Source: a bacterium (GTDB lineage Bacteria > Verrucomicrobiota > Verrucomicrobiia > Verrucomicrobiales > Akkermansiaceae). From it: DNA of 64,000 nt. The stretch lies in assembly GCA_018222765.1 (NCBI GenBank), contig JAAEZT010000008.1, forward strand, positions 1-64,000, read 5' to 3'. The position numbers were made by a program, and so were the translations under genes. The notes below the pieces were generated by a model, which did no database searches, had not been told where the DNA came from, and saw only the letters and a list, made by a program, of their open reading frames with translations. Below, in pieces: positions 13,670 to 62,087 of the stretch (the stretch's first letter is position 1; the number at the start of each line of letters is the position of its first letter).

Positions 13670-16600
13670 ATGAAACGCCCTTTCTCCTACCTCATCCTCT
13701 CTTCTCTTCTTCTACAATCACTCAGCGCCGAGAAGCCTGATCCCAAGTCACTGGAATTCACGAAATGGACGCCCGACTTTCCGGTTCCCGACCCGGTTGC
13801 CATTTCCTTCGACAACCAGGGCCGGGCTTACGTTACGCAGACCCAACGGCGCAAAGCCAACGACCTCGATATCCGCCAAAACCGCGACTGGATTTCCGCC
13901 GACCTCAGTTTTGAATCCCCCGACGATAAGCGGGCCTTCTACCATCAGAAGTTCGTTTCCAAAAACAGCGACGCCAACAAACGTCGCGTCAAAGATTACA
14001 ATAAGGACGGCAAGCACGACTTGGCAGATCTCAAATTTCTCACCGAAAGAATCCACCTCATTGAGGACACCGATGGGAACGGTCTCGCCGATAAGACTTC
14101 CATCTACGCCGAAGATTTCACCGACGAAATCGGTGGGATCGCCGCAGGCGTTCTTCATCACGAAGGTGACGTTTATACCACCATCGTCCCCGATGTTTGG
14201 AAACTGAGAGACACCGACAAAGATGGAAAGGCCGACACCCGAGAATCCATCGCCTACGGATTCGGCGCCCATCTCGCCTATGCCGGTCACGACATGCACG
14301 GCCTCACCGTCGGTCCTGACGGACGTATCTACTGGACCGTCGGCGACAAGGGCCTCGGCGCGACCTCGAAAGAAGGTCTTCATTTCAAATACCCCAACCA
14401 CGGAGCCCTGCTCCGCTGTGATCCCGACGGTTCGAACTTTGAGGTCTACGCCCGCGGCCTCCGCAACGTGCAAGAAATCGCCTTCGATCAATTCGGCAAT
14501 ATCTTTGGAGTCGACAACGACTCGGATCGCCCTGGTGAGAAGGAACGCTTTATCTACATCGTCCGGCACATGGACGCGGGCTGGCGCTCCAACTGGCAGT
14601 ATCGCAATGGCGTTTACAATCCCTGGATGGATGAAAACCTCAGCGTCCCCTATCAGAGGGGACAACCCGCTTACATCACTCCGGCAATCTCACTTTACAA
14701 TAATGGACCCGCTGGGATGGCCTTCAATCCAGGCACTGCTCTGAACGAAGAATGGAAAAATTACTTCTTCCACACCAGCGCGCCCAACGGCCAACACTGG
14801 GGCTTTCAGGTCGAACAAAACGGCGCATCCTTCAAGATGGTCAACGATATGAAGATCACTAGCGGTGTCCCCATCGTTGGCATCAACTTTGGACCTGATG
14901 GTGCGCTCTATGGAGTCGACTGGGGCGGCGGCTATCCCCTCAACAATAAAGGTGCCGTCTGGAAATGGGATGTCGCCAAAAAGCATCCTCTTCGCGAAGA
15001 AACCGCCGGGAAACTCCGCTCTGATTTTTCCAAAGTTTCCGCAGACTCGCTCGTCAACAATCTAGGCCATACCGACCAACGAGTCCGCCTCAAAGCCCAG
15101 TTCGAATTGGTCAAACGCAAGCTCCGCGATGACCTCGAAAGCGCTGCAAAAAAGGGTAGCCAACTCACGAGAATCCATGCCACTTGGGGAATTGGCCAAC
15201 TCAATCGCCAAGCGAAGTCACCTGACTTCAAATTCCTCCTCGGCCTCCTCAATGACTCGGATATCGAAATCCAAACTCAAATCGTCAAAACCATAGGCGA
15301 TCACTTCGGCACCCAGCTCGCCCTTCATTTAGCCCCGACTCCTTCCTCCGAGGTATCTCCTCTCACCCCGGCCCTGAGACCCTTCCTAAAATCCTCCTCG
15401 GCCCGACTCAAGTTCCACGCCGCGATTGCGCTCGGGAATATTGGAAGCCCCCTCGAAGCTGACTCCATTCTTGACCTTCTCGGACAGGCCGCCGAAGACA
15501 AAACCTATCTTCGCCACGCTGCCATCGTGCTCGCCACCGGATGTATTTCCGACGCTGATCTTGTTTCTCTTGCGAAGCACAAATCCCAGCTAGCTCAAAA
15601 AATCGCCGTCGTGGCCCTGCGCCGCCGCGGCTCTGCTGAAGTTGGTGAGTTTTTAAATTCTCCTCTCGAGCACGTCGCTGCCGAGGCCGCCCGCGCGATC
15701 CACGATGACTGGACCATTCCCGAAGCAATGCCCGTTCTGGCCGCATCCCTGGCCACTACTTCATGGATCAACAATGAATCTCTCATTCGCCGCGCTATCA
15801 ATGCCAACTTCCATCTTGGCACACCCGAAACGGCACAATGCGTCGCAACTTTCGCTGCCCGCACCGATGTTTCCGAACCGCTCCGACTAGAAGCGCTCGA
15901 TGCCCTCGCAAAATGGTCGGAACCAGCAAAACTCGACCGCGTGGTCGGTCGCTATCGTCCGCTCGAGAAACGAAAGCCAGCCATTGTCAGGAATGCCATC
16001 ACCACTCAACTCAAAAAGCTCCTCACCGACAAAAGTCAAAACATCCAGAGCCAAAGCATGAGCCTCGCCCGCTCCTTGTCGGTCCAAATCCCCGGCGAAG
16101 CTCTCATTGCGGTCGCACAAAATGATTTTTCTCTCCCCAAACTTCGAGTCGAAGCTCTCCGCGGACTCAGCGCTCAAAACCATCCCGAATTGGAAACCCA
16201 ACTCACCGCCGCACTGAAGGTGCCTAAAGTGGAAATCCGTATCGTCGCCCTCGATCTTCTCAGTCAGAAAAACAAAGAAGCCGCCTTCAAAGTCACCAAG
16301 ATTCTCCTGCGAAACGAGAAAGCTTCACTCGCCGAAAAACAAGCCGCGATTTCCCACCTCGCCAGAGCGCTTGCTTCCCCAAAAAGCGACGAACTTCTGA
16401 ACACCTACCTCTCCAAATTCAAATCCATCCCCGCCGGACTTCATCTCGACTTTGCCGAAGCCGCCGTAGCCCGGAAGTTAAAAGCCCCTTCGCCCGACTT
16501 CGCCCACACTCTTCATGGTGGCAATGTCGAACGCGGAGCCGATCTCTTCATCAACCACCTCGCCGCCCAATGTGTCCGTTGTCACAAGATCAAGAATGGC

Positions 16601-16942
16601 AAAGGGAGCGACATCGGGCCCAACCTCAAATCCATCGGTCGCCAAAAAGACCGCGCCTATCTTTTGGAAGCACTGGTAGAACCACAGAAAGTCATTGCCA
16701 AAGGCTACGGTGCCATTTCCCTCACACTCAACGACGGCAGCACCGTCGCCGGAAGCTACCGCAGCGAGAAAGATGGCATCATCGAAATCCGCGACGCCAA
16801 TAACAAGGCCACCAAAGTCAAATCAACCGACGTCAAAGAGCGCAGCGAAGTTATTTCCACCATGCCTCCCATCGGCCTCATCCTCACCAAACGAGAGGTC
16901 CGCGACCTCATCGAATACCTCGCCTCCCTGAAGGCGAAATAG
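13670..16942 (+). CDS. PVC-type propeller-HEAT-cytochrome c protein
   Basis: A 1090-residue exported protein with signal peptide 1-20. Residues about 30-440 are the membrane-bound dehydrogenase-type beta-propeller (TIGR02604-like), recognised by DPVAISFDNQGRAYVTQTQR, HGLTVGPDGRIYWTVGDKG and GLRNVQEIAFDQFGN. A calcium-type insert with DYNKDGKHDLADL and DTDGNGLADKT lies near 110-145. Residues about 450-930 are alpha-helical HEAT-like repeats. The C-terminus is the Pirellula/Verrucomicrobium heme domain (TIGR02603-like) with CVRCH near 967 and DIGPNLKSIG. It is a likely periplasmic sugar oxidase or electron carrier. It lies 63 bases after the DUF6797-type gene, on the same strand. Confidence 0.85.
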   Translation: MKRPFSYLILSSLLLQSLSAEKPDPKSLEFTKWTPDFPVPDPVAISFDNQGRAYVTQTQRRKANDLDIRQNRDWISADLSFESPDDKRAFYHQKFVSKNSDANKRRVKDYNKDGKHDLADLKFLTERIHLIEDTDGNGLADKTSIYAEDFTDEIGGIAAGVLHHEGDVYTTIVPDVWKLRDTDKDGKADTRESIAYGFGAHLAYAGHDMHGLTVGPDGRIYWTVGDKGLGATSKEGLHFKYPNHGALLRCDPDGSNFEVYARGLRNVQEIAFDQFGNIFGVDNDSDRPGEKERFIYIVRHMDAGWRSNWQYRNGVYNPWMDENLSVPYQRGQPAYITPAISLYNNGPAGMAFNPGTALNEEWKNYFFHTSAPNGQHWGFQVEQNGASFKMVNDMKITSGVPIVGINFGPDGALYGVDWGGGYPLNNKGAVWKWDVAKKHPLREETAGKLRSDFSKVSADSLVNNLGHTDQRVRLKAQFELVKRKLRDDLESAAKKGSQLTRIHATWGIGQLNRQAKSPDFKFLLGLLNDSDIEIQTQIVKTIGDHFGTQLALHLAPTPSSEVSPLTPALRPFLKSSSARLKFHAAIALGNIGSPLEADSILDLLGQAAEDKTYLRHAAIVLATGCISDADLVSLAKHKSQLAQKIAVVALRRRGSAEVGEFLNSPLEHVAAEAARAIHDDWTIPEAMPVLAASLATTSWINNESLIRRAINANFHLGTPETAQCVATFAARTDVSEPLRLEALDALAKWSEPAKLDRVVGRYRPLEKRKPAIVRNAITTQLKKLLTDKSQNIQSQSMSLARSLSVQIPGEALIAVAQNDFSLPKLRVEALRGLSAQNHPELETQLTAALKVPKVEIRIVALDLLSQKNKEAAFKVTKILLRNEKASLAEKQAAISHLARALASPKSDELLNTYLSKFKSIPAGLHLDFAEAAVARKLKAPSPDFAHTLHGGNVERGADLFINHLAAQCVRCHKIKNGKGSDIGPNLKSIGRQKDRAYLLEALVEPQKVIAKGYGAISLTLNDGSTVAGSYRSEKDGIIEIRDANNKATKVKSTDVKERSEVISTMPPIGLILTKREVRDLIEYLASLKAK

Positions 16943-21605: not shown

Positions 21606-24600
21606 ATGAAAGTATCTATCGCCATCGCTATTTTTTTCAGCGGACTTCTCGCGGTTCACGCGGTCAACTTTCATCCCATTTCCTCGATCACCAGTTCGAC
21701 CTCGGGCTCGGACCTATATCCGGTTGGAAATCTCATTCAGGGACCCGGCTCGGGATACTCGACAAGCGAACCCCACAATAGTATCGGCGGCGGCTCCTCC
21801 CACACTTGGGTCACGAACGCCCCGGGAGCAGACTACTTCGCATTACTCCCGGATCCCGTGCTTTTGCTGGATCTCGGTGCCGACCGTTCCCTGAGTGAAA
21901 TTAGCACCTGGGGATACGCCAATTCCAATACCAATGGTGGAAAAGATTTCACCCTTCGTTTCGCTACCAGCGCCGACGGACCGGGCGGACTGGCAACTTC
22001 CATCACTTACACACCCTCCTTCGACGCCGCATTTAGTGCCGATACCCGCGACTCTCACTCCTTCAGCCAAACTGTCATCGCTCGCTACGTCGAACTTGTC
22101 TTCACCGACAACTGGAAAAATCTTCAAGGCGGAACTCCTGGCGGAGACCGGGTTGGACTCGGCGAGATCGCTTTCGAAGATTCCGTCCCTCCCATCGATC
22201 CCCTACTTCAAATTGAAAGCTCCCTGACCCTCACTCTCGACGGCTCGGTGCAAACGATTGACGTCCCGGTAGCAAATTTGGGAGCGACTCAAAGCCTCGC
22301 TCTCTCCACACCAACATTCTCTGGACCCAACTCCGCGGCTTTTTCCCTGCTTTCTTCGCCAGCCTCCATCAGTCCCGGCAATGGCGACAACATTCAGATT
22401 TCCTTCAACCCTACCGGTCTCTCAGGAAATATCAGCGCCTCTCTGGATTTTACGACCAACGACACCTCACAACCTTCGGTCTCAGTCGCCTTAAGTGGCT
22501 TTATCCATGATCCTCGAATTTCCGTCGCGGGATTCTTCGACATCGGCTTCTACCCCTCCGGATCAGGCATTCAGAGCAAGCAGTTCACCATCCAAAACAT
22601 CGGCGGCGGACAAACCCTTAACATTACCGGCACCAGTATCACCGGAGGCAATGCCGCGAATTTTTCCGTGACCAGCTCGCCATCCTCGATCGCGCCATTG
22701 GGCAACGACACCATCACGATCCAACTCGATCCTATGGGCAGTGACGGCATCTTTTCCGCCCAACTTGAGATCACGAGCAACGACGCTCTCAGTCCGTCTT
22801 CCATCGTCAATCTCAACGCCCTCGTCGGCGATGCCATCCCCAACTCCGGCGTTCGCATTAATGAGTTCATGGCCAACAACAGCACTACATTCAACGATGG
22901 CGACGGAAACTCCTCGGACTGGATCGAGCTTTACAATGCCGGGCCGGGGCCGGTCGATCTCGGTGGATGGTATCTCACGGACTCCAGCTCCAATCTCAAC
23001 AAATGGGAATTCCCCGGCGGAACCACCCTTGCGGAAGACGCCTACCTCATCGTCTTCGCCTCCGGACAGAACGTCGACGACTATGTCGACGGCAGCGGAT
23101 ACCTGCATACTAATTTCAAGCTCACAACCGGAGGTGAATACCTCGCACTCGTCATGCCCGACCGCACCACGCCGAAGAGTGAATTTACGCCATCCTATCC
23201 CAGCCAATTCAGCGACGTGTCCTACGGCACTTATTCCGACGGCGGGTCAACAACCAATCTGATTGCCTCGAGTGATGCTGAAGTTCTCATCCCCGATAAC
23301 GGATCTCTGGGGTTAACCTGGACCTTTCCCGGGTTCACTCCCGACGCCTCGTGGTTGACTCCGAATCTGGGCACAGGGGTGGGCTTTGACAACGGCTCTG
23401 GCTACGATGCCTACATTGATGTCGATGTGCAGGACGACATGTATCAAGCTCGCTCAACTGCCTACATTCGCATTCCCTTTACCCTCGCTGATGCTTCGGA
23501 AATTTCGATGCTGGCACTTTCCATCCGCTACGACGATGGATTCTACGCCTACCTCAACGGCGATGAAATCACCTCGCGCAATGCTCCCGCCAATCCCACT
23601 TGGGACAGCACCACACCGTCAAACATTGATGAAAACAACAACCTCGAGACCATCGATGTTTCGGCCTTCACTTCCAGCCTTAAGAATGGCCAAAACATTC
23701 TCGCCATCCATGGTATCAATCGATCAACTGGCAGCAGCGATTTCCTAGCCGATCCTGAACTCACCGGCACAACGACTTCCAACGGACCACTCCTGCTCGG
23801 GTTCCTGCAAACCGCGACTCCCGGTGCGGCCAACACTGGTGGAACCACCAATCCCGGACCCGAAATCATCACCGCCACTCACGCTCCTGCTCAACCGGCC
23901 GAGAACGAAAACATTGTCGTCACCGCCACCGTTCTTCCCCGTCTTGTGGCCATCGGGCAGGTGGAACTCGCATACCGTGTGCAATATGGCGCGTCGACAA
24001 ATCTAACCATGGTCGATGACGGCACCGGCGATGATGCCATCGCCAACGACTCGATCTTCACCGCCACCATCCCGGCATCGGCATACGGAAACGAAGACAT
24101 GGTGCGTTGGTTCGTCACCGCCAAAGACGCCGCCAATAATCCCTCCCGCGCGCCCGCCTTCCTCGACCAAACCGGCACCAATCAATCAGCGGAATACTTT
24201 GGCACCGTGACCACCGATCCTTCGCTCACCTCAGACATGCCCATCCTGCAATGGTTCACGCAAAGCGAGTCCGCCAGTCACACGCGCAGCGGAGCCCGCG
24301 CGTCGGTTTATTTCCTTGGCCGCTTCTACGACAACATCTTCATCCGCCAACGCGGAGGCGCAACCAATGGCTCGATCTCCCAGAAATTTGACTTCAACAA
24401 AGGCGACTCTTTCTACGTGAATGAAGAAATGAGTTCGGTTGGTGAAATCAACATGAACGCCAACGGTGCCGACAGCACCTACATCCGACAAGCGATGGGC
24501 TTCGACACCCACCGTCTCGCCGGCAACGAATCCTGCCTCACCTACCTCTGGCAAATGCGCGTGAATGGTGGAAGCGATCGCGTCGGCGTGGCCATCGAGC

Positions 24601-26513
24601 AAGTCGATGGTGACTTCATGGATCGCTATGGCTACGACCGCGATGGAGATCTCTACAAGTTCGTGCAACGGAGCAACCTCAACCCCGTCTTCTTCGACAC
24701 CATCACCGGCATTGAAAAGAAAACCGGCGACCTTTCCAATATCGACTCGGCTGCCGATCTTGTCGCTGGACTCAACCTCGGCACCTCTGCCGCGCGACGT
24801 CGATGGGTCATCGACAATCTCGACCTCCCTCAAATCGTCAACTACCTCGCCGCCCGCTCCATCATTCAAGACGCTGACGACCTCCGCAAAAACTTCTACA
24901 TGTATTTCGACGCACGCGGAGACAGCCGTTGGCGCATGCTTCCCTGGGACAAAGACTACACTTTCGGCGTCCGTGGCGACGGCGGCACCCACCTTCCCCA
25001 TCCCTTCTTCGGCGATGAAGAGCACAAGAAGCAAAATGCCAATCAGTGGAATATCCTTTACGATGTTATTTTCGAGGAAGAAGTCACGCAACGCATCTAC
25101 CTGCGACGTCTCCGCACCCTGATGGATGACGTTCTCCAGCCCACCTCTGTTCCGACCAACGATCGTATTCTCGAGAACCTCGCCCTCGACACCATCGGAC
25201 CAGCTTCGCCGCCCCTCAGCAGCAACATCAATTCGGTCAACAGCTATCTCAACAGCCGCCGAAATGTCCTCTTCAACAATTACAATTCGCTCATTCCCGC
25301 CAGCCAACCGGCGTCTCCCGACATCGTCTTCGCAGCCGTCGATGCTAATCCCGCCGGCGGAAACCAGGAGCAGGAATACATTCGGATCCACAACAATGAG
25401 AACACCGAGATCGATATCTCCGGTTGGACCATCGAAGGCGGGGTCGGTTTCACCTTCCGTCCCGGAACAATCATCGAGCGAAACGGCGACCTTCACGTTT
25501 CTCCAAGCAGCAAAGACTTCTTGGATCGCTCCGTTTCTCCCAAGGCAGGCGAGGAACTTCTCGTCGCCGCCCCGTATTCAGGCCACCTCTCCAACTTCAC
25601 CGAACTGCTCACCCTCAAAGACAGCTCGGGCACGGAAGTCGACACCTTCAATACGCCCAACGATCCAAGCGACGCGCAACTCTATCTCGCCATTAGCGAG
25701 ATCATGTATCACCCCGCCGATCCCAACGGCGATGCCGAATACATTGAACTCATGAATATCAGCGACACCGTGTCGCTCGATCTCACCGGGGTCAACTTCA
25801 CCGCCGGAGTTGATTTCACCTTCGGCGCCCTCACTCTCCTTCCGGGTGAACGCACTCTCGTGGTTCTGAATCAAGCAGCCTTCGAGGCCGTCCACGGTCC
25901 CGGTCATCCTATCGCTGGCATTTTCCAGAATGGATCACGCCTCAACAACGGAAGCGACCGTATTAAATTGGAGGACGCCAACAACAGCTCGATTCTCGAA
26001 TTCACCTATGACGACGAATCGCCCTGGCCCACCGGCCCCGACGGCGGCGGCTTCAGCCTGGTCCTGATCAATCCCGACACCTCTCCCGATTCCGACGATG
26101 CCTCGAACTGGCGTGAGAGCGGCTTCATCGGCGGCGGCCCCGGAGATCCCGACACCATGCCATTCACCGGCGATCCCGATGCCGACCTCGACAATGATGG
26201 CCTTGTTGCTCTCGCTGAATATGCCTTTGGAACCTCGTCCTCCATTGCCAACCCGAGCCCCTTCGGCGTGGAATCCATTGGCACTGCGATAAGAATCTCC
26301 ACCCAGCTCAACCAAACCGCCGACGACCTTGCCATCTCAATTGAAAAATCACCCGACTTGATCAACTGGTCCGACGCCACTACCGACCTTCCCGAAATTT
26401 CGCGGGTGAACAATGGCGACGGAACCGTCACTGTCGTTTTCGAAAGCGCCTCCGGATACACCGGCTTGGAATTCCGCCACTTCTACCGCCTCAAGATCGA
26501 AATCCTCCCCTAA
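21606..26513 (+). CDS. Giant secreted CotH / lamin-tail protein
   Basis: A 1635-residue exported protein with signal peptide 1-19 and a modular build. Residues about 20-195 are a galactose-binding-like domain ending GDRVGLGEIAF. About 200-405 are two choice-of-anchor-D (ASH-like) domains, and 415-530 a lamin-tail domain (INEFMANNS, DWIELYNAGPGPVDLGGW). A jelly-roll module and an Ig-like module follow. About 900-1250 are a CotH kinase-like domain (RQRGGATNGSISQKFDFNK, WRMLPWDKDYTFG), and two more lamin-tail domains lie near 1300 and 1425. The C-terminus has DPDADLDNDGL followed by a SPDLINW...FYRLKIEI module. CotH proteins phosphorylate or bind surface proteins; here a role in cell-surface anchoring or an extracellular matrix is likely. 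It is probably transcribed alone. Confidence 0.8.
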   Translation: MKVSIAIAIFFSGLLAVHAVNFHPISSITSSTSGSDLYPVGNLIQGPGSGYSTSEPHNSIGGGSSHTWVTNAPGADYFALLPDPVLLLDLGADRSLSEISTWGYANSNTNGGKDFTLRFATSADGPGGLATSITYTPSFDAAFSADTRDSHSFSQTVIARYVELVFTDNWKNLQGGTPGGDRVGLGEIAFEDSVPPIDPLLQIESSLTLTLDGSVQTIDVPVANLGATQSLALSTPTFSGPNSAAFSLLSSPASISPGNGDNIQISFNPTGLSGNISASLDFTTNDTSQPSVSVALSGFIHDPRISVAGFFDIGFYPSGSGIQSKQFTIQNIGGGQTLNITGTSITGGNAANFSVTSSPSSIAPLGNDTITIQLDPMGSDGIFSAQLEITSNDALSPSSIVNLNALVGDAIPNSGVRINEFMANNSTTFNDGDGNSSDWIELYNAGPGPVDLGGWYLTDSSSNLNKWEFPGGTTLAEDAYLIVFASGQNVDDYVDGSGYLHTNFKLTTGGEYLALVMPDRTTPKSEFTPSYPSQFSDVSYGTYSDGGSTTNLIASSDAEVLIPDNGSLGLTWTFPGFTPDASWLTPNLGTGVGFDNGSGYDAYIDVDVQDDMYQARSTAYIRIPFTLADASEISMLALSIRYDDGFYAYLNGDEITSRNAPANPTWDSTTPSNIDENNNLETIDVSAFTSSLKNGQNILAIHGINRSTGSSDFLADPELTGTTTSNGPLLLGFLQTATPGAANTGGTTNPGPEIITATHAPAQPAENENIVVTATVLPRLVAIGQVELAYRVQYGASTNLTMVDDGTGDDAIANDSIFTATIPASAYGNEDMVRWFVTAKDAANNPSRAPAFLDQTGTNQSAEYFGTVTTDPSLTSDMPILQWFTQSESASHTRSGARASVYFLGRFYDNIFIRQRGGATNGSISQKFDFNKGDSFYVNEEMSSVGEINMNANGADSTYIRQAMGFDTHRLAGNESCLTYLWQMRVNGGSDRVGVAIEQVDGDFMDRYGYDRDGDLYKFVQRSNLNPVFFDTITGIEKKTGDLSNIDSAADLVAGLNLGTSAARRRWVIDNLDLPQIVNYLAARSIIQDADDLRKNFYMYFDARGDSRWRMLPWDKDYTFGVRGDGGTHLPHPFFGDEEHKKQNANQWNILYDVIFEEEVTQRIYLRRLRTLMDDVLQPTSVPTNDRILENLALDTIGPASPPLSSNINSVNSYLNSRRNVLFNNYNSLIPASQPASPDIVFAAVDANPAGGNQEQEYIRIHNNENTEIDISGWTIEGGVGFTFRPGTIIERNGDLHVSPSSKDFLDRSVSPKAGEELLVAAPYSGHLSNFTELLTLKDSSGTEVDTFNTPNDPSDAQLYLAISEIMYHPADPNGDAEYIELMNISDTVSLDLTGVNFTAGVDFTFGALTLLPGERTLVVLNQAAFEAVHGPGHPIAGIFQNGSRLNNGSDRIKLEDANNSSILEFTYDDESPWPTGPDGGGFSLVLINPDTSPDSDDASNWRESGFIGGGPGDPDTMPFTGDPDADLDNDGLVALAEYAFGTSSSIANPSPFGVESIGTAIRISTQLNQTADDLAISIEKSPDLINWSDATTDLPEISRVNNGDGTVTVVFESASGYTGLEFRHFYRLKIEILP

Positions 26514-27642: not shown

Positions 27643-30600
27643 ATGAAGGCACTTCTTCTCGTTCTCCTCCCCACGATTGTGATGGGCCAGGAAATGCTTT
27701 CCCCGACCGTCACTACTTTGCAGGCCGGCACGGAATTCTACCCGGCCCAAAATATTAGCAACGGCTCGGGACTCTCCTCGACTCCAACCGCCGGGAATTA
27801 TCTCACCATCTCGCATTCGTCGGCGAGTAGTTCGACGGCTTGGACCACTGCCGCTCCGGGCGGAGGCGGTGCCGATTACTTTGCCCTGAATCCAGCCAGC
27901 GCCCCTCTTCCGGTATTTCTGTTCACCTTCTCCGAAAGTCACAACTTCACCGATTTCATTTACTGGGGATACCACTTTGGAAATCCCAATGGCAACGAAG
28001 CCAAATCCTTCACGCTTGAATTCTCCGACGACGGAGGAACGACTTTTCCCGCCTCCGTCGAACTTCGTTCGCCTGCGCTTTCCCAATCTGCGGCGACCAC
28101 CCTCTCACTCGGTGGGGGCTTCACCGCGAACACCATTCGATTGACCCTGACCGACAATTGGTTCGAGGCCGTCGGTGGCGGAGATCGGGTCGGGCTCGGG
28201 GAAGTCCGTTTTCTCGGCAACACTCCGGTCAATCCCAGCCCAGTCATCGAAACAACCGGGCTCGTGGACTTTGGTTCTTCCGCCAGCAACCCAGGCCCAA
28301 ATCAGCTCCCGCTTCAGATCTCCAACCTCGGGGGAGTGGAAGACCTAACGGTCACCCCAAGCCTTCCCATCGGCAGTTCTTTTTCTGTCGCCGAAGACTC
28401 ACTCATCATCGAAGCCGGTCAATTGATCGACCTCACGCTCACTTTCTTTCCATCCACCGACGGCTGCTTTAGCGAAACCCTCACTCTCACCACCAACGAT
28501 CCTGAAAACCCGCTCGTCGAAATCACTCTCATTGGGGCCGTCAATTGTGTCTTCCCAAATCCACAACAGCCTGATTTCTCAAAGGAAGAAGGCGTTTTCA
28601 GCGAGGACTTCTCTCTCTCCCTCACAAGCTCAGAACCGGGAGCGACTCTCATCTACACTCTTGATGGATCTCTTCCCGGTCCGGACAACGGGTTGGTTTA
28701 CAACGGTGCAATTTCGGTGACTACTTCCATCCAAGTCCGAGCTGCCTCATTCCTCCCGGGACAAGCTCCGGCCATTCGAACCCGGTCCTATGTAAAACTT
28801 AGCCCGGATCTCGTCGGCTACTCTTCCAATCTCCCCATCATGGTCGTTGAAAACTTCGCGGCTGGTTCCATTCCTAACAAAAACTGGAGCACCAACACAC
28901 AAACCGGAGGCGGCTTACAACAATTGGCCCGCCAGCCGGCTTTCCTCGGTATCTATGACCGCAACCCCGCCGATAACACCGCCGATTTCCAAAGCGCTCC
29001 CAATCAATCATCGCGCATTGGCATTCGTGTAAGAGGGGCCTTTTCCTCAACCTGGACACCCAAACCCTACTCACTGGAAACCTGGAAAACCGACGAAGAC
29101 AGCGATCGTTCGATCAAGATTTTGGGGATGTCCACCGAATCCGACTGGATTTTCTATTATCCCCACCCGGGATACGACCGGACGATGCTCTACAATACCT
29201 TCATCTGGGAATTGAGTCGACAAACGGGACGATGGGCTCCGGAGTTTCGATTTGTCGATGTCTTTGTCAACGAGGACGGAGGAGATCTTACCTTGGCCGA
29301 CCGCAAAGGAGTCTATGTCTTTCTCGAGAAACCAAAGCGGGACTCGAAGAGGATCGAATTCGACGAGCTCTCGCAAGACGGTTCCACAGGTGGCTGGATC
29401 AACAGCATCAACCGAATGGACCCCATTCCGGTGGAAGGATTTCCCGCCGAGAATGGAGCAAAAACTCCCCAGTTCTTTCACACCGCCGGACCGAATCGAA
29501 TCCAGTCCACCTCGCCAAACGTTTCCGGATCCGGCGATGACATTCCTCGCCAATACAACGCCTTCATCAACTTCGAGGATCCCAACGGATACACAATCAG
29601 CGCTCCTCAACGGGACGCTGTCGAAGAGTGGTATCGGCAATTCGAGAATGTCCTTTACGACAATGACATTTGGCAGGATCCCGACGTCGGCTATCGGCAC
29701 CACCTCGATACCACCGACTTTATTGACTACTTCCAAATGCTCACTCTGGCCAAACAAGGCGATGGCTTGCTTCTGAGTATGTTCCCCTGGGTTTCGTCGG
29801 GAGATCGCAAACTCCGCATGGGACCCATGTGGGATTTTAATAACGGCGCCTACGGAGGGTCGACGACCGGGACTCTCTACTTCCGCTCGGATCGTTTATG
29901 GTATGACCGCCTCTTCGACGATCCTACTTTTCAACGAGAGTATGAAGATCGTTGGTTCGAGCTCAGAGAGGGCCCGCTTTCCAATACGAACATGTCAGCG
30001 ATCATCGACAGCCAGGCCGCTGAAATCACCACTACTCTCGCCAACCAACAATCCGGGCTAAGCGCGTCCTCGTGGACCAACCGGGTCGCCACGATGAAAT
30101 CTTGGCTGCAAACCCGGGCAAACTGGATTGACTCCAACTTCCTCCCGCCCCCCGATTTCAGCTCAAATGGAGGAGTGATCTCTCCCGGATTCCAGCTCAC
30201 GATTTCTAATACCACGGGAGAAAATGGAACAATCTACTACTCCACGGATGAACGCGACCCCATGGAAACCTTGACCGCTTTTGATGGTCAAATCATCCCC
30301 TTGGTCTCCATGGAAATCTCCGCCCGTGTTCGCACTGATTCGGGGAACTGGTCCGCCATCCGCCGCGCGACTTTTGTCATTGGAACTCCGGCCAGTGCCG
30401 ACAATTTAACCATCAGCGAAATCAACTACCATCCCTCGGACAACTACCCCGCTACGGAATTTATTGAACTCCTCAATACGTCCCCCACCGAAATCATCGA
30501 CCTCACCGAAGTGGCTTTCACTGCCGGCCTCAACTTCACCTTCCCGGTTAATACTCTCCTCAATCCGGGAGAACGCATCGTCGTGGTGGAGAACATTGCG

Positions 30601-31158
30601 GCCTTCACAGACCTCTATGGCGACTTCATGAAAATTGCCGGGGAATTTTTCAAACTGACTAATCTCGCCAACTCCGGAGAGCCACTCGTCCTCTCCGCCG
30701 CCGATGGCTCCGTCATTGCCGACTTCACCTACAACGACAAGGATCCATGGCCCGAGTTTGCCGACGGTGAGGGGTGCACCTTGACTCTCATCCATGGCCA
30801 CGCCAATCCGGAGCTGTCCATGGCATCGAACTGGAGATGCAGCGCCGCCCGCCATGGCTCTCCTGGGACTGACGATTCTCTTGTCTTCGCAGGAGAGCCC
30901 GACGATCTGCCCTCCTTTGTCTTAGGAGTCACCCTACCGGAAGCAACTCTCCCCGATGTCTTTGAATTCAATGTGAGGCTTGGAGCCGATGATTTCATCG
31001 TCATTCCGCAGCAATCCGACGATCTGGTCAGTTGGGAGGAAGTTCCCATGCCGACCCAAGCTTCGATATTCAACGACGATGGCACCGCGACCTACCGGAT
31101 TCCAATTGACAATCTTGATTCGCGGACCTTCCTGAGATTAGTCATCACCTCCCGATGA
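27643..31158 (+). CDS. Giant secreted CotH protein with chitobiase-type and lamin-tail domains
   Basis: A 1171-residue exported protein with signal peptide 1-15. Order of domains: galactose-binding-like domain at about 20-190 (YWGYHFGNPNGNEAKSFTLE; GGDRVGLGEVRFLG), closely related to the preceding PEP-CTERM protein; choice-of-anchor domain about 195-300; a chitobiase C-terminal-like repeat (TLIYTLDGSLPGPDNGLVYN) near 345; CotH kinase-like domain about 410-770 (RVRGAFSSTWTPKPYSLE, RMGPMWDFNNGAYGG); a second chitobiase-like repeat near 870; a lamin-tail domain near 930-1045. The C-terminus has SDDLVSW...TFLRLVI. The ATG lies seven bases after a terminator T-run, and no Shine-Dalgarno is visible, so expression may be low or need its own unusual initiation. 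A paralogue of the gene at 21606. Confidence 0.8.
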   Translation: MKALLLVLLPTIVMGQEMLSPTVTTLQAGTEFYPAQNISNGSGLSSTPTAGNYLTISHSSASSSTAWTTAAPGGGGADYFALNPASAPLPVFLFTFSESHNFTDFIYWGYHFGNPNGNEAKSFTLEFSDDGGTTFPASVELRSPALSQSAATTLSLGGGFTANTIRLTLTDNWFEAVGGGDRVGLGEVRFLGNTPVNPSPVIETTGLVDFGSSASNPGPNQLPLQISNLGGVEDLTVTPSLPIGSSFSVAEDSLIIEAGQLIDLTLTFFPSTDGCFSETLTLTTNDPENPLVEITLIGAVNCVFPNPQQPDFSKEEGVFSEDFSLSLTSSEPGATLIYTLDGSLPGPDNGLVYNGAISVTTSIQVRAASFLPGQAPAIRTRSYVKLSPDLVGYSSNLPIMVVENFAAGSIPNKNWSTNTQTGGGLQQLARQPAFLGIYDRNPADNTADFQSAPNQSSRIGIRVRGAFSSTWTPKPYSLETWKTDEDSDRSIKILGMSTESDWIFYYPHPGYDRTMLYNTFIWELSRQTGRWAPEFRFVDVFVNEDGGDLTLADRKGVYVFLEKPKRDSKRIEFDELSQDGSTGGWINSINRMDPIPVEGFPAENGAKTPQFFHTAGPNRIQSTSPNVSGSGDDIPRQYNAFINFEDPNGYTISAPQRDAVEEWYRQFENVLYDNDIWQDPDVGYRHHLDTTDFIDYFQMLTLAKQGDGLLLSMFPWVSSGDRKLRMGPMWDFNNGAYGGSTTGTLYFRSDRLWYDRLFDDPTFQREYEDRWFELREGPLSNTNMSAIIDSQAAEITTTLANQQSGLSASSWTNRVATMKSWLQTRANWIDSNFLPPPDFSSNGGVISPGFQLTISNTTGENGTIYYSTDERDPMETLTAFDGQIIPLVSMEISARVRTDSGNWSAIRRATFVIGTPASADNLTISEINYHPSDNYPATEFIELLNTSPTEIIDLTEVAFTAGLNFTFPVNTLLNPGERIVVVENIAAFTDLYGDFMKIAGEFFKLTNLANSGEPLVLSAADGSVIADFTYNDKDPWPEFADGEGCTLTLIHGHANPELSMASNWRCSAARHGSPGTDDSLVFAGEPDDLPSFVLGVTLPEATLPDVFEFNVRLGADDFIVIPQQSDDLVSWEEVPMPTQASIFNDDGTATYRIPIDNLDSRTFLRLVITSR

Positions 31159-31546: not shown

Positions 31547-32374
31547 TTGGGAGTGCGACTTTTGATCTTATTGGTGTGCCTCATAAGACTGGCCTACGGA
31601 GACCCCAGAATTCTGGAGCAAAAAAATATCGGCACCTACGCCTGCGGTCCTTGCTCCATCATTAATCAAGTTCTTCTCAGCACTCCGGCAGAACGAGCCG
31701 GATATGAAAAAATCCCAGGAAAGACTGCCGCCGGAAAAGCTCGCACCATTATCGAAAAATACGCTCAGCGCCCCTCGATTACCTATGGCGACAACAAGCC
31801 CACGATGAGGAAAACAGGCATCAATTGGGCTGATATGACCCACCTCGCCAACTGGGTCAGAAAAGATGTCGGCCTCCCCGTTCTCAAGGGATCCTACCTC
31901 CGGAGAATCCCACCAGAAGGAGGGGTCTCACACGTGCAACGAGTCCACAAGATCTTCAAAGACTCCATCGACGGAGGAGTGCTCCCTATCATCAACTTCG
32001 TTTCCCAAACAACCTACCAGGACCCCGACACCGACGAATGGCTCTGGGGATCTCTCATGGGACACCTCTGTACCCTGATGGGAGTACAGGAGAAGCTTTC
32101 CAAAAACGAACAAGGCTTTCGCTTCCGCTACGCCGATCCTCAAACCGGAAACATCGAGACCGGCTATCTCCACTTTTCCGGCGCCAGAAATTTCGCGGCA
32201 TTTGATGGCGATCCGGTCAATGGAAAGTGGAGCAAACACCGCCCCTTCTTGTTGGTAGCAGCACCTGCTCTAAAAATGCAAACAGGCCATGAAAATTGGC
32301 ACCACCGCACAGAGATCGTCATGAACTACGCGATCTATCTGGAGAAGAGGGATGCCTTTTTTGAAGAGGACTAA
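31547..32374 (+). CDS. Secreted C39-like (papain-fold) cysteine peptidase candidate
   Basis: A 275-residue protein with no family I recognise for the whole chain, but with the layout of C39-type papain-like peptidases. YACGPCSIINQ puts Cys33 before Gly-Pro, LMGHLCTLMG has His173, and RYADPQTG has Asp197, in the expected order and spacing. The first 18 residues (LLILLVCLIRLAYG) form a signal peptide, which suggests an exported peptidase or an inactive relative. Start is a TTG at 31547; an ATG at 31534 is in another frame and gives no signal peptide. AAAGGAG upstream is farther away (14 bases) than usual, so the exact start is uncertain. It converges on the aldehyde dehydrogenase gene with a 4-base overlap. 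Confidence 0.55.
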   Translation: MGVRLLILLVCLIRLAYGDPRILEQKNIGTYACGPCSIINQVLLSTPAERAGYEKIPGKTAAGKARTIIEKYAQRPSITYGDNKPTMRKTGINWADMTHLANWVRKDVGLPVLKGSYLRRIPPEGGVSHVQRVHKIFKDSIDGGVLPIINFVSQTTYQDPDTDEWLWGSLMGHLCTLMGVQEKLSKNEQGFRFRYADPQTGNIETGYLHFSGARNFAAFDGDPVNGKWSKHRPFLLVAAPALKMQTGHENWHHRTEIVMNYAIYLEKRDAFFEED

Positions 32375-33783
32375 CAGACCCCCGAGAGGTCACCTTGGAT
32401 CGCGCGGCGGCGGTAGAGAAATTCAAAGAGGTTTCCTTCGTGTGGCTGCTCCCACTGAACGCGGTTCGTCGGGAAAGGCCCGATGTTAAGTCGCTCGATG
32501 TTGTGGCTAATCATCATATCCTGCGACCAAGCTTTGTCTTCGGTAAAGGCACTCACGACAAGAGTTTCGCCGATACTATCAAGCATTTCCGCCTGTGGCA
32601 TCTCGACTATACTCGCGAAGGGAAACATGAACTCGGTATTGGCCAGCGAATGGTTTTTGTCGTCGCAGGCAATGAGGGTAGGACGGAGATAGGTCTGCCC
32701 GTGAGCTTCGACCTTACGATCTCCGTCACGATGAGAGGAGGTAACATCGCGAGCGCCAGGCTCTTCAAGAAGGTCTTCGATCATACCGTCGATGCCCTCG
32801 GCCATCGCGGTATTTGCAAAACCGCAGAGGAGAGCGTTCTCGTCATCGCGTGCCAGCGGTTCGATTTGTGCCAACTTGGCCGCGAGTGCCTCGGCGATCT
32901 CATCGCGGTGCGAGGGCACGAGGATGGACGAGGTATTGATGCAACTCCGTCCACCATTGGCTGAGATTGAAGTCACGAGAACATCGATGTAATCTTCCCA
33001 ACGATCGATGAAGTCTTCACCGATGAGGATTTTGGAACGTCCGGTGCCGTGAACCTGGATCGACTTGAAAGGAGCATACTTCCGGACCGTGACATCAGAC
33101 CCAAAGGAAATTCCGGCGCCACAGCTTGTGAGCAAGGTGTCGCCACCCTCATGAGTGGTTGGATAGAACCCGAAGGCCTCTTTTGGGAATCCCGCCTGGA
33201 TCATCGCTTGCACGATTCGGAGTGGCGTAAAAGGGTCTTCCCGACCTGGCTTAAGGAGCACTGGGATTTTCATCACCAGCGCGGGCAGCCAGAGAGAGTT
33301 GACTGCCGGAGCATTACTCGGAAGAGAGACACCGAGAGAAGAAGTGGCGGGGTAATAATTGACGTCAAGCCCGTCGAGAGTGGCCAGTCCGCCATCAAAC
33401 ATTTCAAGAGGAATCCCACGGGTCAGTCCACCAATGACAGTGCGAATCTGAGACATTGCCTCGTAAATTTTTCCCATATTCATCTTCACCAAGGTGTGGG
33501 GAAGGCGGGTCAGCGCGGAGAGCGATTCGATATATTCCGCCGGGCTCTGGGTGGAATCTCCGCAGGGAAGATCCGCGTGCATGAACAATTCGGCCGCCGC
33601 TTCACAGTAGTCCGCCAGCGTCTCCGCCGGGATGGCATCGAGAGCTGCCTTGGATTTTTCGATATTGAGTAAATCGCGTCGGATGAGCCCAGGGTTGGCA
33701 GTGTGAGTAACGAGATTATCGTTCAACTCAACAAGGTCGGCGGAATGGTAATCCTCACCGAGTCGGAGAATGGGAATTTGCAT
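32371..33783 (-). CDS. Aldehyde dehydrogenase-family acyl reductase
   Basis: A 470-residue cytoplasmic protein of the aldehyde dehydrogenase superfamily. GGRSCINTSS gives the catalytic Cys281, LPSNAPAVNSLW with PVLLKPG lies in the cofactor-binding half, and YLRPTLI and NTEFMFPFASIVEM correspond to late ALDH motifs. It is downstream of, and on the same strand as, a small adenylate-forming enzyme (87 bases apart). That arrangement, like LuxC/LuxE or the EhpG/EhpF pair of phenazine biosynthesis, suggests reduction of an activated carboxylic acid to an aldehyde with NAD(P)H. A degradative aldehyde dehydrogenase running the other way is the alternative. Substrate unknown. Confidence 0.75.
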   Translation of the reverse strand: MQIPILRLGEDYHSADLVELNDNLVTHTANPGLIRRDLLNIEKSKAALDAIPAETLADYCEAAAELFMHADLPCGDSTQSPAEYIESLSALTRLPHTLVKMNMGKIYEAMSQIRTVIGGLTRGIPLEMFDGGLATLDGLDVNYYPATSSLGVSLPSNAPAVNSLWLPALVMKIPVLLKPGREDPFTPLRIVQAMIQAGFPKEAFGFYPTTHEGGDTLLTSCGAGISFGSDVTVRKYAPFKSIQVHGTGRSKILIGEDFIDRWEDYIDVLVTSISANGGRSCINTSSILVPSHRDEIAEALAAKLAQIEPLARDDENALLCGFANTAMAEGIDGMIEDLLEEPGARDVTSSHRDGDRKVEAHGQTYLRPTLIACDDKNHSLANTEFMFPFASIVEMPQAEMLDSIGETLVVSAFTEDKAWSQDMMISHNIERLNIGPFPTNRVQWEQPHEGNLFEFLYRRRAIQGDLSGVC

Positions 33784-33870
33784 AATGAGAAAAGGAGCGG
33801 TTGGTTTTGGAAGTTGGCTATCTAGGTTTAGCGATCGGCCTCTAGCTTTTTGGAGCTGACGCGCCGGTGT

Positions 33871-34941
33871 TTAATAAACGCCCTCGATGACGGCTTTGGT
33901 GCCGCTCTGGAAAGGACGGACATCGCCCACTCCATCCCACGGAAATTCATCACACTCGGGACGTCGGATCGCTTCGTCGCGCTCGAGGAAACGAGGGACG
34001 AAAAATTCCTTGGTCATGGTAGTTAGCTCAACGCGGCCATACTCACCGTATTCGACGCCTTTGGTTGAATCCTTGGGATCAACCACTCGTAAAGTCGCGC
34101 GCGGCTGGGGCGCATAGTAAGTGAGCGAATATTCGCCCGGCTCCCGCTTCCGGCTGATGGCGAGTCCCATGAGGGTGTTTCCGTAAGTAGGAGCGTAGTT
34201 GATCTTCCCTTCGAGAACTTCTTCCTGAATGAACTTCACATACTGCGGAGTCATCGTGGTGCCTCCGGCAAAAACGCCCCGGATTCCGGCATCAGCAAGC
34301 GACATGCGCTCGGCGAGAGATTCGAGAAGTTTCGGGGTCGTGAAGATACATTGAATGTCGCGATGACGGATGATCGTCGCGGCCTGATCAATGACGTGGG
34401 CTTGATACGCCCTGGCCATTTGCATTTCGCCCATGCCAATGAGGCGTTTCACCCAACGGGGATCGAGATCGATAAAGTAGGCCGCTCCGCCACGAATATT
34501 GGCGAGGTGCTCAATGGCAAGACGCAGACGCCGCGGCCCGGTCGGGCCGACCATAAGCCAGTTTCCTCCCTGCGGGAAAAAGTCCGGTCCGTAGTGATTT
34601 GAAAATTCGGTGTAGTCCGTTTTGTAGTCCTCCCAGCCAATCCGTTGTTTAGGCATTCCGGTCGTGCCGCCTGTTTCAAAAACATTGTAGGGCTTGCCCT
34701 CGTAGGCCTTCGGGATGAATTTCGCAGGATCTTCCTTCCGAAGCACCTCGTCGTCGAAATTATCAAAATGCATAATGTCGGCGAAGCACTCCACCTTTTC
34801 TCGGGGATCCCAGCCGGCATTTTTGGCCCAATCCAGCCAATACGGGCATCCCGTTTCGGGCGAAAAGTGCCAGTTAATCAGTTCCCGGGTGTGGGAATCC
34901 AGTTGGGCGCGGGCTTCTTGAACAGTCAGGGTCGAACTCAT
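33871..34941 (-). CDS. Short adenylate-forming (ANL) carboxylate-activating enzyme
   Basis: A 356-residue cytoplasmic protein related to phenylacetate-CoA ligase (PaaK), LuxE and EhpF. ETGGTTGMPKQR (residues 89-100) is the phosphate-binding A3 motif, FAGGTTMTPQYVKF lies in the middle, and YAPTYGNTLMG corresponds to the A5-like loop. YGEYGRVELTTMTKEFFVPR resembles the A7 region. It ends without the roughly 100-residue C-terminal lid domain of most ANL enzymes. Atypical EhpF-like proteins are similarly short, so this need not be a truncation. It likely forms an acyl-adenylate from an aromatic or fatty acid and hands it to the aldehyde dehydrogenase encoded downstream. It is divergent from the lipoamide dehydrogenase gene. 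Confidence 0.72.
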   Translation of the reverse strand: MSSTLTVQEARAQLDSHTRELINWHFSPETGCPYWLDWAKNAGWDPREKVECFADIMHFDNFDDEVLRKEDPAKFIPKAYEGKPYNVFETGGTTGMPKQRIGWEDYKTDYTEFSNHYGPDFFPQGGNWLMVGPTGPRRLRLAIEHLANIRGGAAYFIDLDPRWVKRLIGMGEMQMARAYQAHVIDQAATIIRHRDIQCIFTTPKLLESLAERMSLADAGIRGVFAGGTTMTPQYVKFIQEEVLEGKINYAPTYGNTLMGLAISRKREPGEYSLTYYAPQPRATLRVVDPKDSTKGVEYGEYGRVELTTMTKEFFVPRFLERDEAIRRPECDEFPWDGVGDVRPFQSGTKAVIEGVY

Positions 34942-35069
34942 GAGTAATGGAGTATGAAATACGTCTACTCAGAGGTAAACTAACAAGGGATTGCCGCAAG
35001 CGCAGTTTTTCAGCAAATCCCCTCCCCTTACGCCTTGATTGTTCTGATTCCAGGTTGCAGGTTTTTCCC

Positions 35070-36452
35070 ATGTCATACGATCTCGTCGTTATCGGAGGAG
35101 GCCCCGGCGGTTACGTCGCCGCCATCCGCGCCGGTCAACTGGGAAAAAAAGTCGCCTGTGTCGAAATGGACCGCGCCGGCGGCACCTGCCTCAACTGGGG
35201 ATGCATCCCTACCAAGGCCCTCCTCAAGAACGCGCACCTCTACCACCAGCTCAAGCACGAGGCTTCCACTTTCGGCCTATCCTTTGACAACCTCAGCTAC
35301 GATTGGTCGCAAGTCATCGGGCGCTCACGCAACGTCTCCGGTAAACTCGCCGGCGGAATCGAATTCCTTTTTAAGAAAAATAAGGTCGAGTACATTGAAG
35401 GCTACGGATCCGTTGCCGGTGAAGGGAAAGTCGAAGTGAAAAAAGAAGATGGCTCCACTGAGATACTCGACACCAATAAAATCATTCTCGCCACCGGTGC
35501 CAAGTCGCGCGAACTGCCCGGACTCCCCGTCAACGGCATTTCAGTTATCTCTTCCAAGGAGGCAATGGTTCTCGAAAAACAACCCCACTCGATGGTCATC
35601 ATCGGGGGCGGTGCGATTGGAGTGGAATTCGCCTATATCTACAATGCCTTTGGCACCAAGGTAACGCTCATCGAAATGATGCCTAATCTTCTTCCCGTCG
35701 AAGACGATGAAGTGGGAGAAGCCATCACCAAGATTTACAAGAAAGCCGGCATTAATTGCCTCACCAACACCAAGGTCGTCAGCACCCGTGACAATGGATC
35801 CTCGGTCACCATCACCGTTGAAAACGATCAAGGCACGCAGGAAGTCATCGCCGACACCTGCCTCGTCGCGATCGGAGTCTCGCCCGTCCTTCCCGACGGC
35901 GAGCAACCGAAATTAACCGACCGTGGTTGGATTGAAATCAACGAGCGTTACGAGACCTCTATTTCCGGGGTCCACGCCATCGGCGACATCGCCGGACCTC
36001 CCTGGCTCGCCCACACTGCGAGCTTCGAAGCAGTCCAGTGCGTCGACGGCATGTTCGTGGAAGGCCACGACGTAAAACGCGTCGACCAATTTCCCGGCTG
36101 CACCTACTGCTACCCCGAAGTCGCCTCTGTTGGAAAAACCGAACGCGCGCTCAAGGAGGAAGGCATCGACTACAAAGTCGGTAAATTCCCTTACCAAGCT
36201 CTGGGCAAAGCCCAAGCCAGTGGCGAGACCGAAGGCTTCGTAAAACTTCTCTTCGGAAAAGAATACGGCGAAGTTCTCGGCGCTCACATCATTGGTGAAA
36301 ACGCCACCGACCTCATTTCCGAAATGGGCCTCGCTCTCTCGCTCGAGGCGACCATCGACGATATTCACGCGACCATCCACGCTCACCCGACTCTGGCCGA
36401 AGGCATCCACGAAGCGACCCTCGACGCCGACGGACACGCCATCCACTTCTAG
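35070..36452 (+). CDS. lpdA: Dihydrolipoyl dehydrogenase
   Basis: A 460-residue flavoprotein disulfide reductase. The N-terminal FAD loop VVIGGGPGGYVAA is followed by the redox disulfide motif GGTCLNWGCIPTK (Cys40, Cys45). The central NAD loop is VIIGGGAIGVEFAYIYN, ending at HAIGDIAG. The C-terminal interface motif is HAHPTLAEGIHEA with the catalytic His-Glu pair. The ATG at 35070 is chosen because the family begins directly at the FAD fold; the frame is open for 41 codons upstream without homology. It reoxidises lipoamide in pyruvate, 2-oxoglutarate or branched-chain dehydrogenase complexes or the glycine cleavage system. No E1 or E2 gene is adjacent, so the partner complex is unknown. Confidence 0.93.
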   Translation: MSYDLVVIGGGPGGYVAAIRAGQLGKKVACVEMDRAGGTCLNWGCIPTKALLKNAHLYHQLKHEASTFGLSFDNLSYDWSQVIGRSRNVSGKLAGGIEFLFKKNKVEYIEGYGSVAGEGKVEVKKEDGSTEILDTNKIILATGAKSRELPGLPVNGISVISSKEAMVLEKQPHSMVIIGGGAIGVEFAYIYNAFGTKVTLIEMMPNLLPVEDDEVGEAITKIYKKAGINCLTNTKVVSTRDNGSSVTITVENDQGTQEVIADTCLVAIGVSPVLPDGEQPKLTDRGWIEINERYETSISGVHAIGDIAGPPWLAHTASFEAVQCVDGMFVEGHDVKRVDQFPGCTYCYPEVASVGKTERALKEEGIDYKVGKFPYQALGKAQASGETEGFVKLLFGKEYGEVLGAHIIGENATDLISEMGLALSLEATIDDIHATIHAHPTLAEGIHEATLDADGHAIHF

Positions 36453-60682: not shown

Positions 60683-61933
60683 ATGAGATTCAAATCATCA
60701 ATTCTGGCCGCCACGGCTTTTGCGACCGGTATTTCCGCTTCCATGGCCGAAGACACGGTCAAAGTGGGAGTCCTTCACTCGCTGAGCGGCACAATGGCCA
60801 TCTCCGAAACCTCTCTTCGCGATGTCTTGCTCTACACCTTCGACGAAATTAACGCCGCCGGGGGGGTCCTCGGAAAGAAAATCGAACCTATCGTAGTCGA
60901 TGGGGCATCCGATTGGCCCCTCTTTGCCGAGAAAGCCGAAGAGCTGCTGGTGAAAGAGAAAACTGCAGTGACTTTCGGTTGCTGGACTTCAGTTTCCCGA
61001 AAATCGGTGCTACCGGTCTACGAGAAGCATAATGGTCTTCTCTTCTACCCCGTGCAATACGAAGGTGAAGAACAATCCAAGAATATCTTCTACACTGCCG
61101 AGGCCGTCGGTCAGCAAGCCATTCCGGCCGTTGACTATCTTCTCGAGGAGGGAATGAAGAAGTTCTATCTGATCGGAACAGACTACGTCTATCCACAAAC
61201 CACCAACTTAGTTCTCTTTGAGTATCTCCTGTCAAAGGGGATTCCCGTCGAGAACATCGGTGGCGGACTCCGCAAGGATGCAGCGGGTAAAGTGATCTCC
61301 GCTGGAAACTACACGCCGTTCGGTCATTCGGATTTCCAACAAATCGTTGCCGACATTAAAAAGTTCAGCGCCTCGGGCGACGCCTGTGTTGTGAATACCA
61401 TCAACGGAGACGCCAACGTTCCCTTCTTCAAGGAGTTTGCGGCATCGGGTTTGACTTCTGAAGATTGTCCCGTGGTTTCTTTCTCCATCTCGGAAGATGA
61501 ATTCCGCGCACTTCCCGCCAAGGACCTCGTGGGTCACCTCGGGTGCTGGACCTACTTCATGTCGATCGACTCTCCCGCGAACAAGAAGTTCAAGGACGGA
61601 TTCCAAGCTTGGTTGAAGAAGACAACCGTGGCCGGTGTGGTAAAGGAAAATCGGGTGACCTGTTCACCAATGGTTCTTTCATACAACGGTGTTTACCTAT
61701 GGAAAGCTGCTGTGGAAAAAGCAGGAAGCTTCGATGTTGAGAAGGTCACCGCCGCTCTTCAAGGTGGCATCTCGTTTGAAGGCCCTGGTGGCACAGTCAC
61801 CTCCCAGAAAAACCATCACGTCACCAAATCGGTCTTCATTGGCGAGACTTTGGAAACCGGTCAATTCGATATCATCGAATCATTCAAGGACGTCTATGGG
61901 GAACCATTCCTCAAAGGAACCTTCAAGAAATAA
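60683..61933 (+). CDS. urtA: Urea ABC transporter substrate-binding protein UrtA
   Basis: A 416-residue periplasmic binding protein with signal peptide about 1-23. The sequence follows UrtA throughout: [69 protein letters not shown] and DYVYPQ-flanking ligand-site residues. It captures urea in the periplasm and delivers it to UrtBC. It is preceded by the outer-membrane barrel gene (20 bases) and followed by a terminator before urtB, so it should be made in excess over the permease subunits, as is usual for binding proteins. Confidence 0.93.
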
Positions 61934-61986
61934 AATCCTTACACGGACATCCGACCGGTATTTTTCTTAGTGGGATTTTCATGACC

Positions 61987-62027: not shown

Positions 62028-62087
62028 ATCGAGAGACTGGGAATACCAATCATACTTGGCATTCGGCATGCTCAAGACAACCCACCC

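Follow-up and report, generated by a model that had tools for sequence, protein, structure and literature searches.

Enzyme systems that convert carboxylic acids to aldehydes are known. In the fatty acid reductase of LuxE and LuxC, an acyl-adenylate is formed and is then reduced on a cysteine of the aldehyde dehydrogenase (ALDH) type, and single-chain carboxylic acid reductases (CAR) carry out the conversion with ATP and NAD(P)H. A further two-protein system, EhpF and EhpG, is encoded in the D-alanylgriseoluteic acid phenazine operon of Pantoea agglomerans; its products EhpF-O are reported to convert the phenazine dicarboxylic acid into the antibiotic. In this study, we describe two genes, here called A and B, in a 64,000-nucleotide stretch of Akkermansiaceae (Verrucomicrobiota) DNA (GenBank assembly GCA_018222765.1, contig JAAEZT010000008.1, positions 1 to 64,000; hereafter the window), whose products are of the same kinds as EhpF and EhpG and are encoded in the same order. 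Our preferred reading, with a probability of about 0.55, is that the two proteins together constitute an aryl-carboxylate reductase of the EhpF/EhpG type, which would use ATP and NAD(P)H and act in a chorismate-derived aryl aldehyde/alcohol pathway. A pair of this type is a kind already known; what is new is the conserved, often dispersed gene set to which it belongs.

The comparison with the described systems sets the locus apart in several respects. The EhpF/EhpG operon contains phenazine genes, whereas the scanned neighbours here contain none and the gene set instead has an iron alcohol dehydrogenase (Fe-ADH), a radical SAM enzyme that resembles HemN, and a protein (CL) similar to chorismate lyase. 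The overall reaction would be like that of CAR, but two separate proteins would perform it, with no carrier-protein domain matched and no lid. The pair shares the two-enzyme logic of LuxE/LuxC, yet at E up to 10 neither of the two proteins is matched by PF05893 (LuxC) or by the LuxE model, in a search whose HMMER filters drop most matches above 0.1. The original prediction had likened the unit to both LuxE/LuxC and EhpF/EhpG; the second likeness stands, whereas membership of the LuxC/LuxE families was rejected and that comparison is functional only.

The two proteins

A aligns with EhpF (PDB entries 3l2k and 3hgu) over residues 16-356 (phmmer, E 3.3e-50), is 32% identical to the Pantoea protein, and has no other match in the PDB below E 0.3. 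The Pfam AMP-binding model (PF00501) matches A below its cut-off only, as it does Pantoea EhpF. Three features, a P-loop of the form GGT.G.P, an ERD motif and a C-terminal G.Y, are invariant in 20/20 aligned homologues including Pantoea EhpF (L119), and each of these sequences ends with G(V/L)Y. Ordinary ANL enzymes carry a C-terminal lid domain; A terminates at the EhpF C-terminus, before the position of the lid, and is thus not set up for formation of a coenzyme A (CoA) thioester. Judged by full-length homology, A is a lid-less ANL enzyme of the EhpF family; it retains the GGT.G.P and ERD motifs and is predicted to adenylate an aromatic acid.

B matches the Pfam Aldedh model PF00171 (E 5.9e-19), comes near the cut-off of no curated NCBIfam subfamily, and is 24% identical to Pantoea EhpG. 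Cys281 and Asn157, which we take to be the catalytic cysteine and the oxyanion asparagine, are invariant in 19/19 pair-type ALDHs. The position that presumably holds the general-base Glu is His in B and is His, Gln, Arg, Leu or Tyr, never Glu, in 15/15 pair-type ALDHs; five of six ordinary ALDHs compared have Glu, and the sixth, annotated as CoA-acylating, has Gln. An ALDH without this residue is expected to reduce or transfer an acyl group, not to hydrolyse it, and a B that lacks the thioester-hydrolysing Glu would therefore work in the reducing direction. In a FastTree phylogeny of 21 proteins, rooted on the six ordinary ALDHs as its few outgroups and calculated without LuxC, the 15 pair-type ALDHs grouped apart from the ordinary ones with a support of 0.82, and the B proteins of Verrucomicrobiota and Acidobacteriota formed one clade with a support of 1.0. 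By its residues and its place in this tree, B is an EhpG-type divergent ALDH that keeps the acyl-transfer residues and lacks the hydrolytic Glu. Both protein assignments of the original prediction, a lid-less ANL enzyme and an ALDH-family partner, are thus borne out, and B does not fall in a degradative clade.

Linkage of A and B

The two genes are consecutive open reading frames (ORFs) on the minus strand with A upstream, and no terminator-like site was reported in the spacer between them. Across 80 A-bearing loci, many of which are from the window's own genus and hence non-independent, B lies downstream of A on the same strand in 62, at a distance of 0-1408 bases. Among 58 related genomes, A was found in 43, B in 43 and both in 42, with A only in G057 and only a fragment of B, at a contig end, in G019; the two genes are adjacent in 32 of the 42 by hand count. 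Where they are apart, Fe-ADH directly adjoins B in three of the four genomes that were mapped (G042, G046 and G049). The pairing of A and B is not a matter of chance. Together with the EhpF homology, the tree and the residues of B, this recurring linkage upholds the earlier proposal of a two-gene, EhpF/EhpG-like carboxylate reductase.

A conserved and often dispersed gene set

A and B are part of a more extensive gene set, the other members of which lie elsewhere in the genome and are not visible from the window alone. The set was mapped by clustering and then with tblastn matches that had E up to 1e-15 and spanned no less than 40% of the query, with gene families assigned on loci L059, L065, L115 and L116; the initial clustering map, which left out ORFs of <90 aa and those that lost to an overlapping ORF, and in which some A genes were represented by an antisense ORF (c7), was replaced by the tblastn remap. 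The recurring order is BamB-like propeller 3, propeller 4, an SSS or MFS transporter, A, B, Fe-ADH, propeller 5, the HemN-like radical SAM enzyme, CL, a flavoprotein, a glycosyltransferase (GT4), a 4HBT thioesterase and a small membrane-like protein. The last of these had been labelled EamA by eye, a label that was dropped for lack of a Pfam match. A, B and Fe-ADH follow one another along a single strand, in some cases interrupted by other genes, in 36/80 loci, the run from A through B, Fe-ADH, propeller 5 and radical SAM to CL in 14/80, and propellers 3 and 4 ahead of A in 28/80; these counts are lower bounds, since many loci are cut by contig ends. Haloferula rosea KCTC 22201 (L063), a culturable bacterium, is among the carriers of the set. 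In the window's genome, members of the set were found in three places on three contigs, in a search that left out propellers 3 and 4, and a search of neighbouring genes would therefore not connect them.

Evidence that these genes act together comes from their joint presence or absence. CL occurs in exactly the same 43 of the 58 relatives as A (in G024 as a 42-residue piece at a contig start), and the radical SAM gene (E up to 1e-80) in 41 of those 43, the two in which it was not found, G024 and G039, being 85% and 83% complete. We also searched 288 genomes of the phylum with A, CL, radical SAM and Fe-ADH as queries (E up to 1e-40 for A, 1e-60 for radical SAM and 1e-60 for Fe-ADH); each gene was found in 12 genomes, the same 12, which represent 10 genera and 5 families. 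In eight of these carriers (G000, G038, G042, G046, G049, G052, G115 and G284) separate contigs hold A and CL, and within one genus, g7, G325 carries all four genes and G032 none. The chance that two genes share the same 12 of 288 genomes is ~10^-20.7 if relatedness is ignored, and the true figure is much larger. Such all-or-none inheritance of genes that are often unlinked is good evidence of a single pathway. The pairwise distances between A sequences are correlated with the corresponding distances for B (Spearman 0.88, 64 loci), for Fe-ADH (0.83, 33), for CL (0.72, 15) and for radical SAM (0.66, 17), as vertical descent alone would also yield. EhpF and EhpG are known from a phenazine antibiotic operon; here a pair of the same kind belongs to a set that, among the Verrucomicrobiota genomes searched, is present either whole or not at all and has a patchy distribution.

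The radical SAM enzyme has HemN (1e-33) and the methyltransferase NocN (2e-26) as its closest solved structures. The best PDB match of the flavoprotein is a halogenase (9e-53), with PltA at 3e-50, and GxGxxG and WxWxIP, which we take to be motifs of flavin-dependent halogenases, are present in 23/23 flavoprotein hits (three of these hits represent a single gene, which leaves 21 genes at most); by motifs and homology the linked flavoprotein is halogenase-like, a putative flavin-dependent halogenase. It occurs in 10/15 loci with CL and in 10/20 further CL loci of relatives. In several Verrucomicrobiota (e.g. L128 and L131) the surroundings of CL yielded no flavoprotein, GT4 or thioesterase, and these genes therefore look optional. 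No carrier protein, ketosynthase or P450 was detected among the ten cluster proteins of L059 that were scanned.

Assignment of CL

A Pfam scan of 15 CL members returned one chance-level match only (HrpB4, 1/15 members), and a profile of the CL alignment, several rows of which start at a tblastn boundary and not at a start codon (alignment A1), had no match in the PDB at E up to 10. An AlphaFold2 model of the CL of the window's genome (pLDDT 90.7, pTM 0.88) is closest to AF1396 of DUF98 (2nwi; Z 16.9, root-mean-square deviation (rmsd) 2.0, 142 aligned), presumably a lyase-like family, and also resembles chorismate lyase (1g81; Z 12.8, rmsd 2.9, 141 aligned). In hhalign, CL aligned with E. coli UbiC at E 2e-4, and the Arg and Gly of UbiC, taken with the active-site roles and numbering that we assume for them and for the Glu, align with the invariant R72 and G86. 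Some results count against the assignment: the hhalign probability is just 46.8, the UbiC Glu falls one column off the invariant E169, the 178-aa CL of L059 has no Pfam or NCBIfam match, and the model matches the effector (UTRA) domains of regulators with Z scores that reach 12.1 and are level with that of chorismate lyase, so that the fold alone does not decide function. A UTRA-type sensor, though compatible with the fold, was considered the less probable reading, since DUF98 is clearly the better match, the UbiC Arg and Gly are kept, and CL lies between enzyme genes. From the model and these alignments, CL is likely a chorismate lyase.

Marine brominated-phenol clusters are reported to contain a chorismate lyase, a flavin halogenase and a P450 (PMC10579414). 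The combination of chorismate lyase and flavin-dependent halogenase, and the origin from chorismate, would be common to both systems; the set described here differs in its putative carboxylate reductase pair, in the presence of Fe-ADH and a radical SAM enzyme, in having no P450 in the L059 scan, in a CL only distantly related to UbiC, and in a halogenase-like gene that is present in only some CL loci.

Proposed pathway and alternatives

Families, residues, linkage and co-occurrence were taken from sequence, and from them we infer the direction, substrate, step order and product of the pathway that follows. CL would turn chorismate into an aryl carboxylic acid, and since the acid most likely comes from chorismate in this way, 4-hydroxybenzoate or a modified form of it is the simplest candidate substrate, the former probably. 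A would bind ATP and the aromatic acid and yield acyl-AMP, from which the acyl group would move onto Cys281 of B; B would then reduce the thioester with NAD(P)H and free the aldehyde. The dedicated Fe-ADH, which is encoded downstream of B in many other genomes, may convert the aldehyde to the alcohol. Tailoring of the product may fall to the radical SAM enzyme, joined in some genomes by the halogenase-like flavoprotein and GT4. Homologues elsewhere support aromatic acids as the substrate class, since among 28 plasmid records with an A homologue, eight of which were opened, five of the eight have it beside chorismate-using genes (Table 1). Narrow searches of the openly licensed literature found no description of such a pathway. 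If true, the proposal would add an aromatic metabolite or cofactor to phyla with little-known natural products, and a small two-protein carboxylate reductase.

Several observations weigh against this reading. No B was present in the fetched DNA at 18/80 A loci, five of which have <1.2 kb of contig left, and A and B are apart in 10/42 relatives by hand count (G036, G037, G042, G045, G046, G049, G051, G053, G054 and G055), some of which may be contig breaks in draft assemblies. The Fe-ADH of G055 occupies a third contig and adjoins neither gene of the pair. At the level of single loci, in a search not extended to the whole genomes, the radical SAM gene was detected but no CL in L075 and L081, and neither gene in L077; for most Acidobacteriota loci the fetched DNA shows A-B or A-GT4 and no other members of the set. 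The co-occurrence was assessed without a matched control gene and with shared ancestry not removed. Support for the pathway consists of comparisons of sequences and models, and acid reduction by EhpF/EhpG themselves is presumed.

Among the alternatives, an uptake route is unlikely. An imported aryl acid would be reduced to the alcohol by A, B and Fe-ADH, for detoxification or scavenging, with the transporter beside A as the importer; in 25/80 loci A is indeed immediately preceded by a transporter gene on its own strand (SSS in 12, MFS in 13), and an SSS-like gene, A and B are consecutive on the haloarchaeal plasmids of Table 1. The transporter could equally export, however, an ATP-consuming reduction would be costly for scavenging, and the co-occurrence with CL and radical SAM points to synthesis. 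An activity like that of LuxE/LuxC, with an aliphatic or fatty acid as substrate and a lipid aldehyde as product, is very unlikely: the two-enzyme logic is identical, Pantoea EhpG has a weak match to LuxC (E 0.001, below cut-off) and a 4HBT/YbgC-type acyl-CoA thioesterase is found in 9/80 loci, but A and B match neither Lux model at the threshold given above, five of the eight opened plasmid homologues are in aromatic pathways, and carrier protein and ketosynthase are absent from the L059 proteins scanned. Likewise highly improbable is a role in aromatic degradation, with A as a CoA ligase and B as a dehydrogenase of the ordinary kind that oxidises aldehydes. Both superfamilies are common in degradation, and the only superfamily models matched are PF00501 (A, below cut-off) and PF00171 (B); against this reading stand the missing general-base Glu in all 15 pair-type ALDHs, the missing lid for a thioester step in A, and the grouping of B with EhpG-type ALDHs.

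With the aryl-carboxylate reductase as the preferred reading, the role of the product can be considered. The aryl aldehyde/alcohol could work with the BamB-like, quinoprotein-like propellers encoded alongside, as a redox shuttle or a new redox cofactor, a suggestion that we regard as quite unlikely. Its shuttle variant, a bacterial analogue of the way in which white-rot fungi cycle aryl alcohols, would set acid/aldehyde reduction inside the cell against oxidation outside the cytoplasm; export of the propellers was judged by eye from their N-termini.

Features and surroundings of the locus

Table 1. Positions of the pair, of the other members of its gene set in the same genome, of neighbouring genes in the window, and of A homologues on plasmids
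Feature	Location	Strand	Basis or remark
Gene A, EhpF-type lid-less enzyme, predicted acyl-adenylating, 356 aa	33871-34941	-	phmmer match to EhpF; motifs in 20/20 homologues
Gene B, EhpG-type aldehyde dehydrogenase-fold putative reductase, 470 aa	32371-33783	-	PF00171; Cys281 and Asn157 in 19/19
A-B spacer, 87 bases	33784-33870	-	both genes on same strand
Fe-ADH and propeller 5	contig C75 (L116 8019-10534)		window's genome
Radical SAM, CL, flavoprotein, GT4, thioesterase, membrane-like protein	contig C87 (L115 8318-13718)		window's genome
Dihydrolipoamide dehydrogenase-like gene (lpd), divergent	34947-36452	+	ORF start 5 bases from A start
275-aa secreted-looking protein	31547-32374	+	4-base overlap with B end
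Very large secreted-looking protein	21606-26513	+	CotH kinase and three lamin-tail (LTD) stretches
Very large secreted-looking protein	27643-31158	+	resembles product of 21606-26513 by eye only
Planctomycete-type PSD/PSCyt cytochrome protein	3041-5527	+
Two proteins with cytochrome c matches	11045-13606 and 13670-16942	+	DUF6797; DUF7133/HEAT
Peripla_BP_5 binding protein, then branched-chain-type permease	60683-63728	+	looks like urea or amide ABC transporter
A homologue with phenazine genes	E. coli, Pantoea, Burkholderia plasmids
A homologue with DAHP synthase, pabB	S. goshikiensis plasmid
A homologue with DAHP synthase, isochorismate synthase	Streptomyces NBC_00998		ALDH few kb off, other strand
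A homologue beside type I polyketide synthase	one plasmid locus		annotated arylcarboxylate reductase
SSS-like transporter gene, A, B in a row	Halalkalicoccus, Halomarina plasmids (L122, L124)		haloarchaeal

The assembly that contains the window is 4.33 Mb in 87 contigs with a completeness of 97.8%, and its closest genome matches are Akkermansiaceae/Verrucomicrobiales metagenome-assembled genomes. GC skew is clearly negative across most of the window and about 0 at A-B (+0.05, -0.04), which fits their position on the minus strand; it is also about 0 at 54-56 and 60-64 kb. In agreement with the earlier observation that no lux or phenazine genes surround the pair, no such family was matched by A, B or their five neighbours (31.5-39.3 kb), in a search limited to these proteins and not extended to the whole genome. 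A phenazine pathway was likewise rejected, since no phz family was found in these seven proteins, in ten further proteins of the window or in the ten L059 proteins, the rest of the genome lying outside the search.

In the Acidobacteriota, GT4 recurs beside an EhpF-like gene, before or after it (L098, L100 and L101-L106), and in L101-L106 B was not in the fetched DNA. These GT4 and EhpF-like loci possibly represent a different pathway that uses the same enzyme.

A link between lpd and the pair was considered and rejected; lpd is near A in just 5/80 loci and is therefore probably unrelated. On the other side of the pair, the 275-aa secreted-looking protein is matched by neither Pfam nor NCBIfam models at E up to 10. 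The remaining genes noted in the window encode the large secreted-looking proteins, the cytochrome proteins and the ABC-type transporter listed in Table 1.

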